A DNA stretch of 64,000 nucleotides from a virus: the IMG/VR virus record IMGVR_UViG_3300017605_000140, positions 1 to 64,000 of that record; one strand, 5' to 3'. The position numbers and the translations under genes were made by a program. A model generated the notes under the pieces. That model was not told the origin of the DNA and made no database searches. It saw nothing but the letters and a program-made list of their open reading frames with translations. Shown piece by piece: positions 55,997 through 63,466 of this stretch. Numbering within the stretch: position 1 is the stretch's first letter; every line of letters starts with the position of its first letter.

Positions 55997-56788
55997 TTAA
56001 GAAAGCGGTGTCCCAATACTGCTAGCTATACTACTAGTAGCTACTTGAGACATTACAGTGAATGATACATCTACGGCACAACGTGATGGAACCATATTTG
56101 AAGCAAAATGGGTCCATGTCACATTTTGTCCGCTTATATATCCAAAGTAAGATAGTGCACCCTTGGAACTCTCTCCGAAATAAAGATTAGCTGGTACTAA
56201 TTGCATAGGTCCCTGAACAACATTAGTAACTTTAGCAGGATTTATAGCTGGAGGGGCTGCTTGTCTTTGTGTATTAGTCTGTACTTGAGTTATATTTATA
56301 CCCAATAAATTATAGAAAGCTTCCACATCAACACGTGCCCCATATGTTCCTGCTAACGTTCCCACATAACCAGAATCCCATAATTCAAAAGTACGATCAA
56401 ATAACAAAGAAAAAGAGATAGTAGTATTTAAGCTAGTAGCATATGACCCCGGGTCATCTGGTCTTCTGGCGTAAGCTGGAAGAACTCCGCTGTTTAAGTC
56501 AATAGATCTACTTTCAGAAATAGTGGAGGGATTATAGAGAAAATTAACCTTATACTGTATATTCCCACTAACCCCTCCAACACCTGCGCCAGCTACAATT
56601 ATTCCCCTGTATATATTTCCTACTTTAGAGCTAAAGTTTTTCCTAATTGTGGGATTAGTAGCAGTATTAGCTCCACCTACTGTAAGAATATTAGGATGGA
56701 ATGTTGGATTCTCAAAAACTGTTATTCCTGGTTTCCCGCTGAGTGTGGGATATATAGTACCATTTATAGGCTCAATAGGAAAAGTCAT
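55997..56788 (-). CDS. Contractile-tail tube-initiator/baseplate protein (CIS tube-like)
   Basis: A 263-residue protein. Y-K-V-N-F-L-Y-N-P-S-T-I near residue 82, S-R-S-I-D-L near 94, T-T-I-S-F-S-L-L-F-D-R-T near 125 and R-V-D-V-E-A-F-Y-N near 151. The N-P-S...S-F-x-L-x-F-D-R-T pattern is typical of the tube-initiating baseplate proteins next to the tape measure in contractile injection systems. Its stop overlaps the tape measure gene by one base. Confidence 0.7.
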   Translation of the reverse strand: MTFPIEPINGTIYPTLSGKPGITVFENPTFHPNILTVGGANTATNPTIRKNFSSKVGNIYRGIIVAGAGVGGVSGNIQYKVNFLYNPSTISESRSIDLNSGVLPAYARRPDDPGSYATSLNTTISFSLLFDRTFELWDSGYVGTLAGTYGARVDVEAFYNLLGINITQVQTNTQRQAAPPAINPAKVTNVVQGPMQLVPANLYFGESSKGALSYFGYISGQNVTWTHFASNMVPSRCAVDVSFTVMSQVATSSIASSIGTPLS

Positions 56789-59772
56789 TACTGTCCTATC
56801 TGTAGATTTTTAATACGAAGTTGTTCATTCATAGAGTCTACTATCAGCTTACCAGTTAACTTAGCATCAATAGAAGAACCAGAATATCCAGACGGAAGAT
56901 TAACATTTATATCTCCGAACTGAACAGTAGTACCTGATGAACCTTTAAGGTTAGGATTAAAGGTATTATTCAAAAGAGTCTGGCGAATTGTTTCCGCTTG
57001 TTGAGCAGGAATAATCATTTCACCTTGGTGAACTGTGGCCTTTTGATCCTTGTCAATATTCCAAGCACCAGCCGCATACCAATTATTTCTCTGGTGGAAA
57101 GACCAAGCAGCATTAGGACTATGGTATCTGTTGTCAATATAATCCATCATCCAACGAAGTTGGGTTTCTCCGTTGGTCTTCCAGTCCGATCCCGCACTAG
57201 CGTATTTACCAGGTGGAAGAGCCTGTGCCAATCCGTAAGCACCTGAGCTAGGATTAGTAGCTTTAGGATTCCACCCCGCTTCGGACATTTCCAGAGAGTT
57301 AAACGCTCCCCATTGACCTGCCCACCCTCTTTGTGCTAATAATTTTTTAGCATAAGCTTGTAGGGAAGATACCTTGTTACTACCAGTTCCTTTTACATTT
57401 CCCGTAGGATTAGGGTTTCCGGATGTATTGGCAGCACCACTAGAAGCGGCTGTAAGACCTACCGACCCACCACCAGTGGCCCCACTTAGTGAACTCATCA
57501 GAGCCTCTAATTCAGAAGTTCCTTTATAGCTACCAATATCCCCACCAGATTTAGACTGTTGGTTATTAAGTGTGTCAGTGTTTGAACTATTCTCATTTAA
57601 CAAAGAATTCATATTACCTACAGATCCCAGAATTCTTCGAGCGTTAGTAAACTCTCCAGGCTTAAATGACCGGATACGAACATTAGCCCCCGTATGGGGA
57701 GCCTCAATAACTTTTCCACCACCTATAGCCATAACAACATGATGTGCGGGGTTACCGTTGAACAGTAGATCTCCTGGCTGTACTTGGTCGGTAGGTACTG
57801 GCTTTCCCTGCTTTTGCTGATCAGCAGCAGTACGAGGGAGTTTTACACCCGCTTTGCCATAGGCCCATTGTATAAGACCAGAACAATCCCACCCATTAGG
57901 GCCAGTGCCTCCCCACACATAAGGATCACCTAGTTCTTTTTCTGCAAAACTAATTACTTGAGCAGCATTCGCACCACTGTTAGTACCCGTAGCTCTTATA
58001 GATCCACCACTACCACCACCAGTAGCACTATTACTAGAACCTCCGAATATACTGGTTAACTTATTAAGACCCTTTTTACCCCATTTTGCCCCAGTAGCAA
58101 TTTGTCCAAATGGGTTGAGCACGTTCATTGGAGAAGTAAGAGCTTTACCAGCAGCTTTTCTATATATATCAAATTGAGACATATTAGCTGTTACTTTATC
58201 ATCAGCATGTAAGCCTAGATAAGCTGCACCCGCCGCAGCAGTAACACCTAGTCCAGCTAATCCAGTAGTAGCCGCACCGCTTATTCCGGTAGCACCAGTT
58301 CCTGGTACACTCCATACACCATTAGCGCCTTGTGTGGCGGATAACAATCCATTAGTAGCGCCTGTACGAGCAGCACCTCCGCCGCCCCCGCTGAATAGCC
58401 CACCTAAACCGCTTAGAAGGCTGCCTCCGCCCCTGAAAAGTCTAGCAGCACCAAAGAGACCTACCCCAGCTCCAAAGGCGTTACCGAAGCCACTGAGGGC
58501 ATTTGAGAAGGGTGCTGCCCAACCGGCTCCGGTACCAATAGCCTGATCCAAATGTGTTGTCTTTAAGAAGGCTGTAAGAGCATTGCTGAATTTATTCACT
58601 GCTTTGGTAGCACTGTCAAACGCAGGAGCAAGACTATTAAGAATATCATTCTGACGTGTAAGTCTTGTGGCATTCAAATTTCTCTGATTTTCAAACATAG
58701 AAGAGCCCATACCAGTAGTTTTAGCTAACTGATTTATAGCACTTTTATCTCCTGTACCAGCTTTTTCTAATAAATTATAATATCTGGAAGAAGAAATACC
58801 CTTATTCTGGGAGACTACTTGTCCCCTAATAATATTCTGATATTCCTGAATAGTATTCTGGTTCCACCCCATAGCCTGACCAAAATACTGAAGATTTACA
58901 TTAAGACTTCCACCCTGAGATAAAGAAGCATCTAATTGTTGGGGATTAATACGTTGATTACCAAAAGTTCTGGAATATATAGACTGAGCAATATTGCTCA
59001 TAGTGTTTTTCTTACCACCAGCAAGAATAGGACTTGCCAAACCTAAAGCAGGGGCTACCATGGTAGCTCTGGCACTGAAGGTTTGCTGTGCTGCGGTTGC
59101 TCCGCCTGTAGCTCCCAAGGTAGGACTAGCATAAGCAAAGGCATTAGCTTGACGCATACCTGAAACAAAGGCAGGATTAGCTTGTCCATTAAACTGGGAG
59201 TTTCCAAAAGTATATTGGTTAACATACGCGGCTCTGGCAGCATCTGTAGCATTTAGTGCTGCATAGTTATTATTGAATGCTAAAGCTCTAGCTGTCTCAG
59301 CCGGTCCTCGAAAACCACCAGTAAATCCACCAGCAATAGCAGACTGAGTACCATAAAAATCCATCTGCATATTTGTGGACATATTCTTATTGGCGTAACC
59401 CGTCAGTCCGGAAAGAACCGCCGCAGTAGCTCCCAATCCAGCAGAGAGTCTAGAGTTTCTTCCTAAGGGACCAAAAGCTCCGTTACCTCCATTAGGAGAC
59501 ATACCACCGAAACTGCCACCACTGAAGTTTCCGCCACCGCCGTTAGTAGAGTAGCTGGATCTATTAGAACCAGAATTCCAGAGAATACCCATGGTACTTC
59601 CACTAGAACCCGCAGCTCTGTTAGCAGCACCTGTCATATTACCAAAACCGGTGGACAATCTTCCTACATCAGAAGTAAGTCTTCCAATATTGGTAGTTAA
59701 AGAATCAACCGCTTGTTGAAGACCATTGGTCCCAAGCAAGCGGCTGGCTCCTATATTATTCTCATCAGCCAT
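56788..59772 (-). CDS. Tape measure protein with NlpC/P60 and lytic transglycosylase domains
   Basis: A 994-residue protein; the ATG at 59772 has GGAGATATT before it. Residues 1-120 are Gly/Ser/Asn-rich; 130-560 helical; a Gly-rich hydrophobic part near 470-570 may enter membranes. NlpC/P60 domain at about 630-760: W-D-C-S-G-L-I (catalytic Cys), H-H-V-V-M-A-I, E-A-P-H-T-G. Lysozyme-like domain at about 820-900: N-S-L-E-M-S-E-A-G-W, S-G-A-Y-G-L-A-Q-A. It sets tail length and opens the wall on DNA entry. Confidence 0.9.
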   Translation of the reverse strand: MADENNIGASRLLGTNGLQQAVDSLTTNIGRLTSDVGRLSTGFGNMTGAANRAAGSSGSTMGILWNSGSNRSSYSTNGGGGNFSGGSFGGMSPNGGNGAFGPLGRNSRLSAGLGATAAVLSGLTGYANKNMSTNMQMDFYGTQSAIAGGFTGGFRGPAETARALAFNNNYAALNATDAARAAYVNQYTFGNSQFNGQANPAFVSGMRQANAFAYASPTLGATGGATAAQQTFSARATMVAPALGLASPILAGGKKNTMSNIAQSIYSRTFGNQRINPQQLDASLSQGGSLNVNLQYFGQAMGWNQNTIQEYQNIIRGQVVSQNKGISSSRYYNLLEKAGTGDKSAINQLAKTTGMGSSMFENQRNLNATRLTRQNDILNSLAPAFDSATKAVNKFSNALTAFLKTTHLDQAIGTGAGWAAPFSNALSGFGNAFGAGVGLFGAARLFRGGGSLLSGLGGLFSGGGGGAARTGATNGLLSATQGANGVWSVPGTGATGISGAATTGLAGLGVTAAAGAAYLGLHADDKVTANMSQFDIYRKAAGKALTSPMNVLNPFGQIATGAKWGKKGLNKLTSIFGGSSNSATGGGSGGSIRATGTNSGANAAQVISFAEKELGDPYVWGGTGPNGWDCSGLIQWAYGKAGVKLPRTAADQQKQGKPVPTDQVQPGDLLFNGNPAHHVVMAIGGGKVIEAPHTGANVRIRSFKPGEFTNARRILGSVGNMNSLLNENSSNTDTLNNQQSKSGGDIGSYKGTSELEALMSSLSGATGGGSVGLTAASSGAANTSGNPNPTGNVKGTGSNKVSSLQAYAKKLLAQRGWAGQWGAFNSLEMSEAGWNPKATNPSSGAYGLAQALPPGKYASAGSDWKTNGETQLRWMMDYIDNRYHSPNAAWSFHQRNNWYAAGAWNIDKDQKATVHQGEMIIPAQQAETIRQTLLNNTFNPNLKGSSGTTVQFGDINVNLPSGYSGSSIDAKLTGKLIVDSMNEQLRIKNLQIGQ

Positions 59773-59809
59773 CAATATCTCCTAAGTTACTTTATTACTT
59801 TTAATTATA

Positions 59810-60037
59810 TTACCTATAAGGCATTCCACCAAAAGTAACCCCTTCACCAATGGATCTAGTAATGACTTGATTTGAATTGTTGAGTTGGTGCACTCTTTCG
59901 TATTCTTGTTCTAGCTTATAGACGTATCTATTAACCCAGTGTTTACGCTCTCTGTAGGTTAATTTTTTAGATTCAGAAATAGGCCAATTAAAAGCTTCTA
60001 CTAACTGTTCATAATCTTTATACAGAATTTGGTAATC
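59810..60037 (-). CDS. Frameshift extension of tail assembly chaperone (no own start)
   Basis: A 75-codon reading frame from 60037 to the TAA at 59810, in the +1 frame of the upstream gene, with no ATG and no ribosome site. Sequence begins D-Y-Q-I-L-Y-K-D-Y and contains E-A-F-N-W-P-I-S-E-S-K-K-L-T-Y-R-E-R, similar in style to T-type extensions of tail assembly chaperones. It lies between the G-type gene and the tape measure, exactly where long-tailed phages encode such an extension. The fused product would be about 362 residues. Confidence 0.7.
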   Translation of the reverse strand, partial: DYQILYKDYEQLVEAFNWPISESKKLTYRERKHWVNRYVYKLEQEYERVHQLNNSNQVITRSIGEGVTFGGMPYR

Positions 60038-60050
60038 AGAGTTCCTGAAA
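60030..60050 (-). promoter_or_regulatory. Candidate +1 programmed frameshift site
   Basis: On the minus strand the zero frame ends TTT-CAG-GAA-CTC-TGA. The Leu tRNA on CTC can slip forward to TCT and the ribosome then reads GAT-TAC into the 75-codon frame. A sense codon with slippery Leu before a slow stop plus an AGGA just upstream is the arrangement of the RF2 gene site (CTT-TGA). Confidence 0.6.
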
Positions 60051-60899
60051 TAGGATACCCACGTTTAGTGGGACAAGAACCTCACCCTCGCAAGAAGAGC
60101 ATTGTGCAACTACTTTATCGTATCTGGGACCAGGCTGATTATTATAAATGTAATCCTGTAAAGTCTTACGGTCAGCAAGTCCTAGTTTCTTAACATCACT
60201 TAAACCTTTAGAAAGTCTTTCAGTACCATCAGGTTCTATAAATGACAGTACACAAAAAGCTAACGTTAAGCTATTCATCTCTGGAATAGTCAATTGACTT
60301 TTGAATATGTCATTCTGAACTGCACCAGTAGGGAACTGTACACGGGCTTTACGTCCCTTACGTATATCCACAAGAAAATCGCGTACTTCTGGATCAGCTA
60401 ATTCCTGTACAGGAATATCTTTCAGATTAAGTGTTAAATCATTAGATTCCCCACAACTCTCACAAGCTACACCAAACAGTTCGAACTCATCCCCGAAAGT
60501 TGCACGTCTTATACCTAGCATTAACATATCCAGGTCACCCTGTAATAAGGAATCTAAGATATCAGTAGATATTTCAGTATCCCCAATAGCCACAGTACCG
60601 CATTGTAAAAGAGTGCTTACATACTTTGCAGGATTATTAGAGGTTCTAGCCTTGGCAAGTTTTTCCTCATGTTCCCCAGTTAGTTCCTGAATTTCTGCTT
60701 CACGTACTACCCTGTTATCAAGTAATAATCCTGCGGGAAGTTTTATAAAGGTATCAGGTAGCTCACCTATTACTGGCACAGGATTAAGAGAATGAAGAAC
60801 TTTCTTAGTAAGAGCATTTAAATCTGATGATGCGGCGTTTACAACTTGACCCTCAACATCATCAAAAGTCATAGAATATTCGGGCTGCTCGTAATCCAT
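60036..60899 (-). CDS. Tail assembly chaperone / T4 gp26-type baseplate hub assembly protein
   Basis: A 287-residue protein. Between tube and tape measure genes. L-P-A-G-L-L-L-D near residue 51, D-M-L-M-L-G-I-R-R-A-T-F-G near 132, then a zinc ribbon C-E-S-C-G-E near residue 154 and C-S-S-C-E-G near residue 272. This resembles T4 baseplate-hub assembly proteins and the G-type chaperone of contractile phages. It ends at a CTC-TGA site that may direct frameshifting. Confidence 0.7.
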   Translation of the reverse strand: MDYEQPEYSMTFDDVEGQVVNAASSDLNALTKKVLHSLNPVPVIGELPDTFIKLPAGLLLDNRVVREAEIQELTGEHEEKLAKARTSNNPAKYVSTLLQCGTVAIGDTEISTDILDSLLQGDLDMLMLGIRRATFGDEFELFGVACESCGESNDLTLNLKDIPVQELADPEVRDFLVDIRKGRKARVQFPTGAVQNDIFKSQLTIPEMNSLTLAFCVLSFIEPDGTERLSKGLSDVKKLGLADRKTLQDYIYNNQPGPRYDKVVAQCSSCEGEVLVPLNVGILFQEL

Positions 60900-60978: not shown

Positions 60979-61554
60979 TCAAAAAGAAACCCCGTTTAAG
61001 CCAATAGAGCTAGCTAATTTGAAATCAAAACCTTCATGAGCAAGACTTAGCTGCTGCATAAGAACAGCATTCGCACCAGCGTCTAAATCAGAGAATGCTA
61101 TGGAAGTTGGCCATGCATTGTAAATTCTGTAAATAGCCTTTACAGGAACTTGCTTGGTAGTTACCGGGTGGTCTAATACCATAACATCAATAGTTGCGCG
61201 GAAATCCTGTCCAGGAGATCCTGTACCTGTTCCCTGCATAACAGTGAATAGTTCTCTCATCCACTGCCACATTGGGCCAGAACCTACAGCAACACCCTGA
61301 GATAGGGTAATAGGTGCAAAATCACTCTGACCAGGCATCTTCTGAGTAGTGGTATTCATTCCACCCTCACGATATGGAATTACTTCAGTGGTTATATTCA
61401 GCCCACTAACAGTCATGAATCCCATAGTGGCAAAACCACGAATATGCGGATGCATGATATTAACATTGAACTTAAAGTTTCTTAATGGGTCTGTAGCTAA
61501 ATGGGCAATAGAGGGAGTTGCCTTAGCTATAGGTGCTGCGATTGATGTAGCCAT
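60979..61554 (-). CDS. Tail tube protein (T4 gp19-like)
   Basis: A 191-residue protein. F-K-F-N-V-N-I near residue 28, F-M-T-V-S-G-L near 46, E-V-I-P-Y-R-E-G-G near 57 and a C-terminal Y-R-I-Y-N-A-W-P near 145 followed by I-A-F-S-D-L-D-A: this is the tube signature of contractile tails (x-V-S-G-L, Y-R-E-G-G, A-W-P). Polymerises inside the sheath. Directly downstream of the sheath gene. Confidence 0.92.
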   Translation of the reverse strand: MATSIAAPIAKATPSIAHLATDPLRNFKFNVNIMHPHIRGFATMGFMTVSGLNITTEVIPYREGGMNTTTQKMPGQSDFAPITLSQGVAVGSGPMWQWMRELFTVMQGTGTGSPGQDFRATIDVMVLDHPVTTKQVPVKAIYRIYNAWPTSIAFSDLDAGANAVLMQQLSLAHEGFDFKLASSIGLNGVSF

Positions 61555-61567
61555 TTAATTAATCTCC

Positions 61568-63466
61568 TTAGGCTGTAGTTGTTGTAGAAGCAGCCATCTG
61601 GTTAATATCAATTACTACGAACTCAGCGGGACTATTAAGAGCTAATCCTACTTGTACGTGAACTTCTCCAGCGGCGATTGTAGTTGGCGTGTTATTTCCA
61701 GAATCACATTGCACAAAGTATGCTTGATCAGCAGTATCACCTTGAAGAATTCCTTGTTGCCAAGCTCCTTGTAGATATTGCGTAACTACTGCGCTAAGTG
61801 TAGCCCATAGCGTTGGATTATTATTTTCAAATACCGCGAATTGGGTAAGCCCAGTAAGTGTGAATTGAATATTCATTAAGGTACGCTCAACTGGAACGTA
61901 GCGGCTAGGCAGATTAGTCAGTAATGTTCTAGCACCCATAACACAGAAACCATAGCTGGAAATATTACGAATAATATTTACACCATTAGAGTTAAGAGAA
62001 TCAAGATTACTATTCTGGAAAGCTAGTTCAGTTCCCGCTACCCTCTGCAAAGGAATAGTTACTCCAGCCGGGGCCTTCTGTACACCGTATAAACCATCAG
62101 TACTGGAGTACAAACCTAGTACCGCTCCGCCTGGAGGAAGAGTTCTGGTAGCTCCAGGAGTTGTAGAAATAGGATCTGGTACTTGTACCCAAGGACCATA
62201 TAGAGCTACTGAAGAAGAAGGAGTTAGCTGGGAATTTCCTACTACCATACGTAGGTAAGTATCCACAGTAGCTGCCTCATTAGGGGTAACTCCATCAGCA
62301 CCTATAGTAGCTCTTGGAACGTCTACTACAGCAAAGAGATTAGGCTGAGCTTCTGTGTATGCAAGAATAGGATTAAGAATAGACGTATCTGAAACACCGG
62401 GAAGATTTAAATCAATATTTCCCTGGATAGTAGATAGTTTCTGTGTAGCAGTAAGAAGGCTAGGCGTCGCTACTCCGTCTGATCCCCCAGACAAAGCTGT
62501 AGGAGCTTGAGTCTGTGGAGTAATAGCAGTATTCCACGTTGAGTAAGAACCTAGATCCACTGCCTGAATATACTTAGATCCAAGTAATGTTGAGTTAAGC
62601 ATAGATACGGCATACCGCTGGTCTGTACGATTCATTGTTACGTCGAGGAATCTCTCAACGATATTAGAATCTGCTGTTCCCCCATAACGTACTGTAAGAT
62701 TAAATCTTCCTGTACCAGTTACGCTGTCAGTAATATCTACATACACATTATTACCCCAGGTACCAACAGATACACAGCTAAGCTTAAGTATTGGTGTAGG
62801 TGTTCCTGTGGTGTTGTACAGAGGAATAGGAGTCATAGGAGTATAACTACCGTTATCAGTAAAAGTAACAGTAGGGGCAGTAACAGATGCAAGTAGCAGA
62901 GGTGTACCTAGTACGCCATCAACTGTTAGATTACGTCTATATACTCTATAAGAAGTAGCAGTGGCTACCGCTGTCCAGTTAAGAACAACGTTATTTGTAA
63001 CTGTAAGAGTTTGATTTGCGATTGCTTGTACTGGAATACCACCATTAGTTTCACCAGGGGATTTAACAGCGGTTACTGTGTACTCGTAAGTGTACGAAGG
63101 AGTTGTAGTTCCTCCAGGAGTAGCGGTAACACCAGTAGGAGGAAGAATTCCACCAGTACCAATCTCACGGTCATTTAATGTTTGAGTAGCTGTTATAGCA
63201 TCAGCAGCAGCAGCTCTTACTACATAGCACTGATTACCGTTATTAGTAAAGTATTGCCATACCGCGAAAGGTAGCAAATTGGCTGCTGTACCAAATCCCC
63301 CGTAAATATTGAGAAAGTCATTCCAGCTTTGAATAAGAGTAGGCTGTGTAGGTCCTTGAGTATGGACACCTATAAAAGCAGCCGTAGATTGTCCCGGACT
63401 AGTTTGTCCTGTAGACAGGGGAGTCAAGGATGTATTTACATATACACCAGGACGCTGATAGGTCAT
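61568..63466 (-). CDS. Contractile tail sheath protein with inserted FN3-like domain
   Basis: A 632-residue protein. R-P-G-V-Y-V at residue 5, A-A-F-I-G near 29, N-G-N-Q-C-Y-V-V-R near 75; core resumes with A-S-L-L-like repeats and ends with N-N-N-P-T-L-W-A-T-L near 553 and G-E-V-H-V-Q-V-G-L near 603. Residues about 110-210 are an insertion resembling a fibronectin type III domain (P-P-T-G-V-T-A, L-N-W-T-A-V-A-T-A-T-S-Y-R-V-Y-R-R). The insert is likely exposed on the tail surface. Confidence 0.92.
   Translation of the reverse strand: MTYQRPGVYVNTSLTPLSTGQTSPGQSTAAFIGVHTQGPTQPTLIQSWNDFLNIYGGFGTAANLLPFAVWQYFTNNGNQCYVVRAAAADAITATQTLNDREIGTGGILPPTGVTATPGGTTTPSYTYEYTVTAVKSPGETNGGIPVQAIANQTLTVTNNVVLNWTAVATATSYRVYRRNLTVDGVLGTPLLLASVTAPTVTFTDNGSYTPMTPIPLYNTTGTPTPILKLSCVSVGTWGNNVYVDITDSVTGTGRFNLTVRYGGTADSNIVERFLDVTMNRTDQRYAVSMLNSTLLGSKYIQAVDLGSYSTWNTAITPQTQAPTALSGGSDGVATPSLLTATQKLSTIQGNIDLNLPGVSDTSILNPILAYTEAQPNLFAVVDVPRATIGADGVTPNEAATVDTYLRMVVGNSQLTPSSSVALYGPWVQVPDPISTTPGATRTLPPGGAVLGLYSSTDGLYGVQKAPAGVTIPLQRVAGTELAFQNSNLDSLNSNGVNIIRNISSYGFCVMGARTLLTNLPSRYVPVERTLMNIQFTLTGLTQFAVFENNNPTLWATLSAVVTQYLQGAWQQGILQGDTADQAYFVQCDSGNNTPTTIAAGEVHVQVGLALNSPAEFVVIDINQMAASTTTTA

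Follow-up and report, generated by a model that had tools for sequence, protein, structure and literature searches.

Probable +1 frameshifting at a conserved UUU_C in a putative tail assembly chaperone gene of contractile-tail phages

Described frameshift systems and the chaperone locus

Frameshifting in tail assembly chaperone genes, as in lambda G/GT and its relatives, has been reviewed (PMC5009743), and a report on T4-like chaperones by Vladimirov et al. 2022 is cited in PMC12846349. Forward shifts in prokaryotic viruses include Listeria phage PSA tsh/cps, SPP1 17.1 and the HSTV-2 chaperone (PMC5009743, PMC6316719), the last of which is considered very likely, and forward shifts also occur among SEA-PHAGES annotations (PMC5009743, PMC10885494). 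Outside phages, +1 shifting at UUU_CGN has been established in influenza A virus, where a junction peptide was found, and fijiviruses and amalgaviruses have been proposed as further cases (PMC3498833), and the class also takes in chronic bee paralysis virus (PMC3498833, PMC5052127). A bacterial +1 shift with UUU as the shift codon is known in FseA (msi172-msi171) of the element ICEMlSymR7A (PMC5009743, PMC10359603).

We analyzed a window of 64,000 nucleotides, positions 1 to 64,000 of the virus record IMGVR_UViG_3300017605_000140; the whole record is 110 kb long and carries 28 tRNA genes, tRNA-Phe(GAA) among them. These tRNA genes lie in a cluster (L131:5725-15226; record 85725-95226) that also includes Gln(CTG) and two Met genes. 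The nearest isolates are the Streptomyces phages BRock, LuckySocke, Alone3, pSt2308 and GiJojo, and the window probably represents a soil phage with a Streptomyces host. The order tube–TAC–tape measure (Table 1) is that of G/GT-type chaperone genes and is kept in distant relatives as well. The tape-measure-type protein has a transglycosylase-like region in addition to its peptidase domain, and its BRock equivalent is annotated as an endolysin.

The frame-0 protein matched PF12322 (T4_baseplate) at 1.2e-8, with 35.3 bits against a cut-off of 24.5, and phrog_150 at 2.1e-12. An AlphaFold2 model of the N-terminal part (pLDDT 87) found as its best viral fold match a 'Baseplate hub assembly protein, T4-like' (8.5e-22); the HK97 chaperone 2ob9 was matched at E=3.4 only, and searches of solved structures by sequence and by fold returned nothing significant. 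A related Streptococcus phage protein used as query reached gp26 of KVP40 and of cyanophages. The locus shares family, fold and gene position with T4 gp26 and its KVP40 counterpart. From its position, its family and a short-plus-long arrangement analogous to that of lambda, we infer that the protein is a tail assembly chaperone. As in G/GT, the gene lies between the tube and tape measure genes, two forms would be made from one start, and the shift would fall near the 3′ end. The differences are that lambda-type sites mostly shift -1, whereas the shift here would be +1 at UUU_C, and that the N-terminal protein belongs to the T4 gp26 family.

Table 1 Features of the chaperone locus in the window
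Feature	Position	Strand	Evidence
Tail assembly chaperone frame-0 product (TAC-N), 287 aa, T4 gp26-like	60036..60899	-	PF12322, phrog_150, fold match
Putative +1 slip site UUU_C, A-site codon CAG	60047..60050	-	TTTC invariant among relatives
Frame-0 stop TGA	60036..60038	-	TGA, TAA or TAG in relatives
Predicted +1 extension after slip (AGG AAC TCT GAT ... TAA), R-N-S + 75 codons; C-terminal domain of the long form	59810..60046	-	
+1-frame TAA, 5′ bound of possible shift interval	60065..60067	-	Sequence
Tail tube protein, upstream neighbour	60979..61554	-	PF06841 5.7e-30, phrog_4542
Tail sheath protein	61568..63466	-	phrog_23 4.7e-43
Tape-measure-type tail protein with NlpC/P60 domain, downstream neighbour	56788..59775	-	phrog_329 2.6e-124, PF00877 1.3e-23

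On the minus strand the chaperone ORF ends in CTA TTT CAG GAA CTC TGA (TTT 60050-60048, CAG 60047-60045, GAA 60044-60042, CTC 60041-60039, TGA 60038-60036). A second frame of 75 codons runs in +1 from GAT at 60037 to TAA at 59812-59810; it has no start codon, and ATG, GTG and TTG are absent upstream of its conserved core. We propose that the two frames form a chaperone pair expressed from one message, the long form very probably being made by a +1 frameshift at UUU_C, as comparison among related sequences suggests. Most ribosomes would stop at TGA and release the short form (TAC-N). A minority would slip +1 with UUU in the P site, tRNA-Phe(GAA) re-pairing from UUU to UUC, so that AGG would replace CAG as the next codon and reading would continue to 59810. 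The resulting long form (TAC-NC) would have 362 aa and an additional domain at its C terminus. If lambda G/GT is a guide, the tape measure would be coated by the short form, and tail tube subunits would be brought in through the added domain of the long form.

A second frame that is open, conserved and selected

Relatives were collected by a search with the N-terminal protein, using query patterns that do not touch the junction. Counting the window, 110 sequences could be used; they fall into 64 clusters below 90% identity. They include prophage-like copies in assemblies of Streptomyces, Nonomuraea, Actinomadura, Saccharothrix and Terracoccus. Beyond the frame-0 stop, each of the 64 clusters has 44-80 further codons in the +1 frame without a stop (median 53), as against a median of 11 codons in the -1 frame, and in the five isolates and the close relatives with junction sequence the second frame is always in +1. 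A sequence-only reading of the window had pointed to a startless 75-codon frame continuing from the chaperone stop and had taken it as a sign of a programmed +1 frameshift; the frame is confirmed, and conservation together with a dN/dS of about 0.1 supports the shift well. In the ten-member clade around the window, differences at +1 codon positions 1, 2 and 3 number 594, 337 and 1368 and the median dN/dS is 0.105, by which the +1 frame is under purifying selection in this clade. The C-terminal domain is conserved around the motif W-x-L/I-x-E-x(3)-L-T-x-R-E-R-x-H-W, and no strong match to a named family was found for it.

The same comparisons bear on the idea, implicit in current annotations, that the second frame is a separate gene entered by reinitiation or at an internal non-AUG start. 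It is annotated as a separate ORF in BRock, LuckySocke, Alone3 and GiJojo, and distant homologues of contractile-injection-system type do have GTGA/ATGA overlaps. Yet the isolate annotations either use differing internal starts, which vary among relatives and cut off conserved residues, or miss the frame entirely. No start position is shared among the 64 clusters, and 17 of them, including that of the window, have no ATG, GTG or TTG in the +1 frame ahead of the core motif. Sequence conservation moreover reaches right up to the frame-0 stop, and a separate start would leave the conserved TTTC upstream unexplained. The sequence-only reading had named an ATG with a ribosome site in relatives as evidence against frameshifting; such an arrangement exists only in the distant injection-system-type homologues and in none of the 110 phage and prophage-like relatives. 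We therefore regard a separate gene as improbable.

Position of the probable shift and candidate stimulators

All 110 loci, in all 64 clusters, have TTT with C as the next nucleotide. The distance from TTT to the stop is four codons in 59 clusters, three in four and seven in one, with TTTC kept throughout. TTT makes up a median of 12% of Phe codons across the loci, and 69%, the majority, in the window's own genes; a naive calculation puts log10 P for TTT in all 64 clusters at -62, a figure that is overstated, the sequences being related. Within the gene, column F284 is TTT in 64/64 clusters, and three other Phe columns serving as control have TTT in 15/29, 9/40 and 7/42. The codon after TTT always begins with C (CGC, CAG, CTC, CGT, CGG, CTT, CCG, CCT, CAA or CTG) while encoding R, Q, L or P, so the constraint lies on the nucleotides and not on the residue. 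Around the site, the frame-0 stretch is short and its nucleotides also encode the +1 frame, so coding constraint in +1 could account for some of the conservation downstream of UUU. As tRNA-Phe(GAA) reads both UUU and UUC, a +1 slip here would re-pair fully.

The sequence-only reading had placed the slip three codons further on, at CTC-TGA, as an RF2-like event driven by a slow stop and an upstream AGGA. CTC TGA and AGGA are indeed found in the window, and CTC is kept in 16 of 17 sequences of its close clade; this near-invariance follows from the +1 Ser codon TCT. Across the 64 clusters, however, the last sense codon is of 14 kinds, with CTC in only 26, and the stop varies among TGA (34), TAA (24) and TAG (6). 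The AGGA (60046-60043) lies after UUU and 1 nt before CTC, against the 3 nt of RF2-type Shine-Dalgarno (SD) spacing (PMC5009743), and most relatives lack it; the RF2-type combination of a re-pairable codon before UGA with an SD 3 nt upstream is thus not found at the window locus. For the Leu codon CUC, slipping to UCU would need a C.A mismatch, while a slip from UUU to UUC restores perfect pairing, and a slip at CTC gives no reason for keeping TTT C upstream. Taken together, these observations make the CTC-TGA site highly improbable. In place of the junction E-L-D-Y-Q expected from it, +1 slippage at UUU_C predicts L-F-R-N-S-D-Y-Q in the window, with the tryptic peptides VVAQCSSCEGEVLVPLNVGILFR and NSDYQILYK, and in BRock the junction peptide ...NVGILFANSNYK.

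A -2 shift or transcriptional slippage would yield the same frame by identical arithmetic, as the sequence-only reading had correctly observed of a -2 shift. A -2 shift would however set the Phe anticodon on UGU or UAU, a mismatch in most relatives, and with its three T's the window site falls short of the longer runs that transcriptional slippage usually requires; we hold either route to be very unlikely. A sequencing indel or a pseudogene, of which a split gene is a usual sign, is refuted for practical purposes by recurrence of the split in 110 loci, many assemblies and five isolate genomes under purifying selection.

The window's clade shows no evident stimulator. No downstream RNA structure above that of shuffled sequence was detected in the window's clade among nested structures (mean z +0.2 to +0.3). 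At a median of 22.7 per 1000 across the 64 clusters, the A-site codon is not a rare one, and the idea of a hungry codon is unsupported. In one other clade an SD-like GGGGGA lies upstream, and anti-SD pairing there beats synonymous random sequence; in the window's clade GGGGGA is absent, and the sequence upstream of UUU pairs with the anti-SD no better than synonymous random sequence does. PA-X likewise has no evident stimulator, and its shift amounts to about 1% (PMC3498833, PMC5009743).

The site thus resembles the influenza PA-X class in its P-site UUU_C, in the predicted movement of tRNA-Phe to UUC and in the lack of an evident stimulator at PA-X. It differs in that members of the UUU_CGN class are eukaryotic viruses and these are bacterial DNA viruses, and in the A-site codon, which is CGN in 31/64 clusters and CAG, CTN, CCN or CAA in the others; the window, with CAG, falls outside CGN. 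By its published description, FseA shares a bacterial mobile element, a +1 direction and UUU with our locus, but the proteins are unrelated and FseA has a conserved Trp-Gly upstream; a PF20109 search of 229 genomes for the FseA shift site returned mostly unsplit or truncated copies. PSA, SPP1 and HSTV-2 are alike in having +1 shifts in virion or chaperone genes, although the PSA and SPP1 sites are based on proline CCC, unlike UUU_C.

Candidate slip sites across the wider gp26-like family

Outside the actinophage set, UUU_C with an open +1 frame occurs in Bacillus phage SP-15 (TTT TTT CAC), Streptococcus phage GXN1 (TTC TTT CGT), Flavobacterium phage immuto (TTT CTT) and a 484-kb uncultured phage (TTT CTA), and UUU_U with an open +1 frame in Listeria phage LIS04 and Microcystis phage Mel-JY01. 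A +1 long form is probably made in Mel-JY01 (L143:2195-2431), SP-15 (L138:35728 on) and LIS04 (L139:2227 on) too; the annotations of these three phages give the second frame as an overlapping gene, give part of it as a short ORF or omit it. Among 46 further uncultured loci, with redundancy kept, 40 combine a +1 extension with a TTT whose next base is T or C, and six (L150, L151, L153, L155, L226 and L192) have no UUU_Y with +1. In L150, L151, L153, L155 and L226 the C-domain lies in the -1 or an unclear frame, without UUU_Y. Among the uncultured viral contigs L152-L224, many phages show a highly conserved TTT TTT T(GG/AC) CCT junction that is followed by a +1 extension.

In Atu_ph07, Phosso and PA5oct the sequence is TTT TTC and the extension is in -1; these phages appear to shift -1 at UUUUUUC, on the same Phe, with an overlapping ATG as the alternative in Atu_ph07 and Phosso. 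Profile comparison links the C-domains of the distant +1 group with those of the small -1 group (probability 95%). For the C-domains of the actinophages, the matches are to the distant +1 group (77%) and to DUF6760-type proteins (70%), and the direct match to the -1 group was not significant. Beside gp26, KVP40 carries a short separate ORF whose annotation notes similarity to the C terminus of gp51. This ORF has an ATG of its own that overlaps the stop (TAATG), or it might be reached by a -1 shift at TTTTTTC; a resemblance of the window's C-domain to this ORF is suggestive only, the profile match being not significant. A Burkholderiales locus (L119) considered as a -1 frameshift was rejected, its second frame starting with an ATG that overlaps the stop.

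Three Streptomyces loci (L134, L135 and L136) have a zinc-motif gp26-like gene followed, with a GTGA/ATGA overlap, by a DUF6760 gene; judged by the DUF6760 gene and its neighbour, they look like contractile injection systems. The DUF6760 protein appears to be related to the C-terminal domain of the phage chaperones, a relation that suggests a function for DUF6760.

We favour, with some reserve, the view that tRNA-Phe slips at a deeply conserved Phe codon close to the 3′ end of gp26-family chaperone genes and that the direction of this slip has changed in evolution. It would be +1 at UUU_C or UUU_U in Actinomycetota, Bacillota, Cyanobacteria and Flavobacterium-host phages and in many uncultured phages, and some proteobacterial jumbo phages would shift -1 at U_UUU_UUC. 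The family would then offer a natural comparison of +1 and -1 slippage on one codon.

A frameshifted tail chaperone is of a kind already known, and we rate its UUU_C variant in a phage chaperone as new: no report of it was found in the literature searched, outside which Vladimirov et al. 2022 lies. The tool PRFect requires the shifted A-site codon to be more abundant than the unshifted one (PMC10885494); this holds in only 20/64 clusters, so the tool would largely miss such sites. The findings point to a +1 frameshift in contractile-tail phages, in a gene that five published Streptomyces phage genomes either split in two or record without its second part, and would bring into phages the UUU_C +1 class, whose wider use had been left open when the eukaryotic-virus sites were described (PMC3498833). 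If the direction of slippage has indeed changed within the gp26 family, the family would constitute a large prokaryotic PA-X-like class operating with neither a rare A-site codon nor an evident RNA stimulator.
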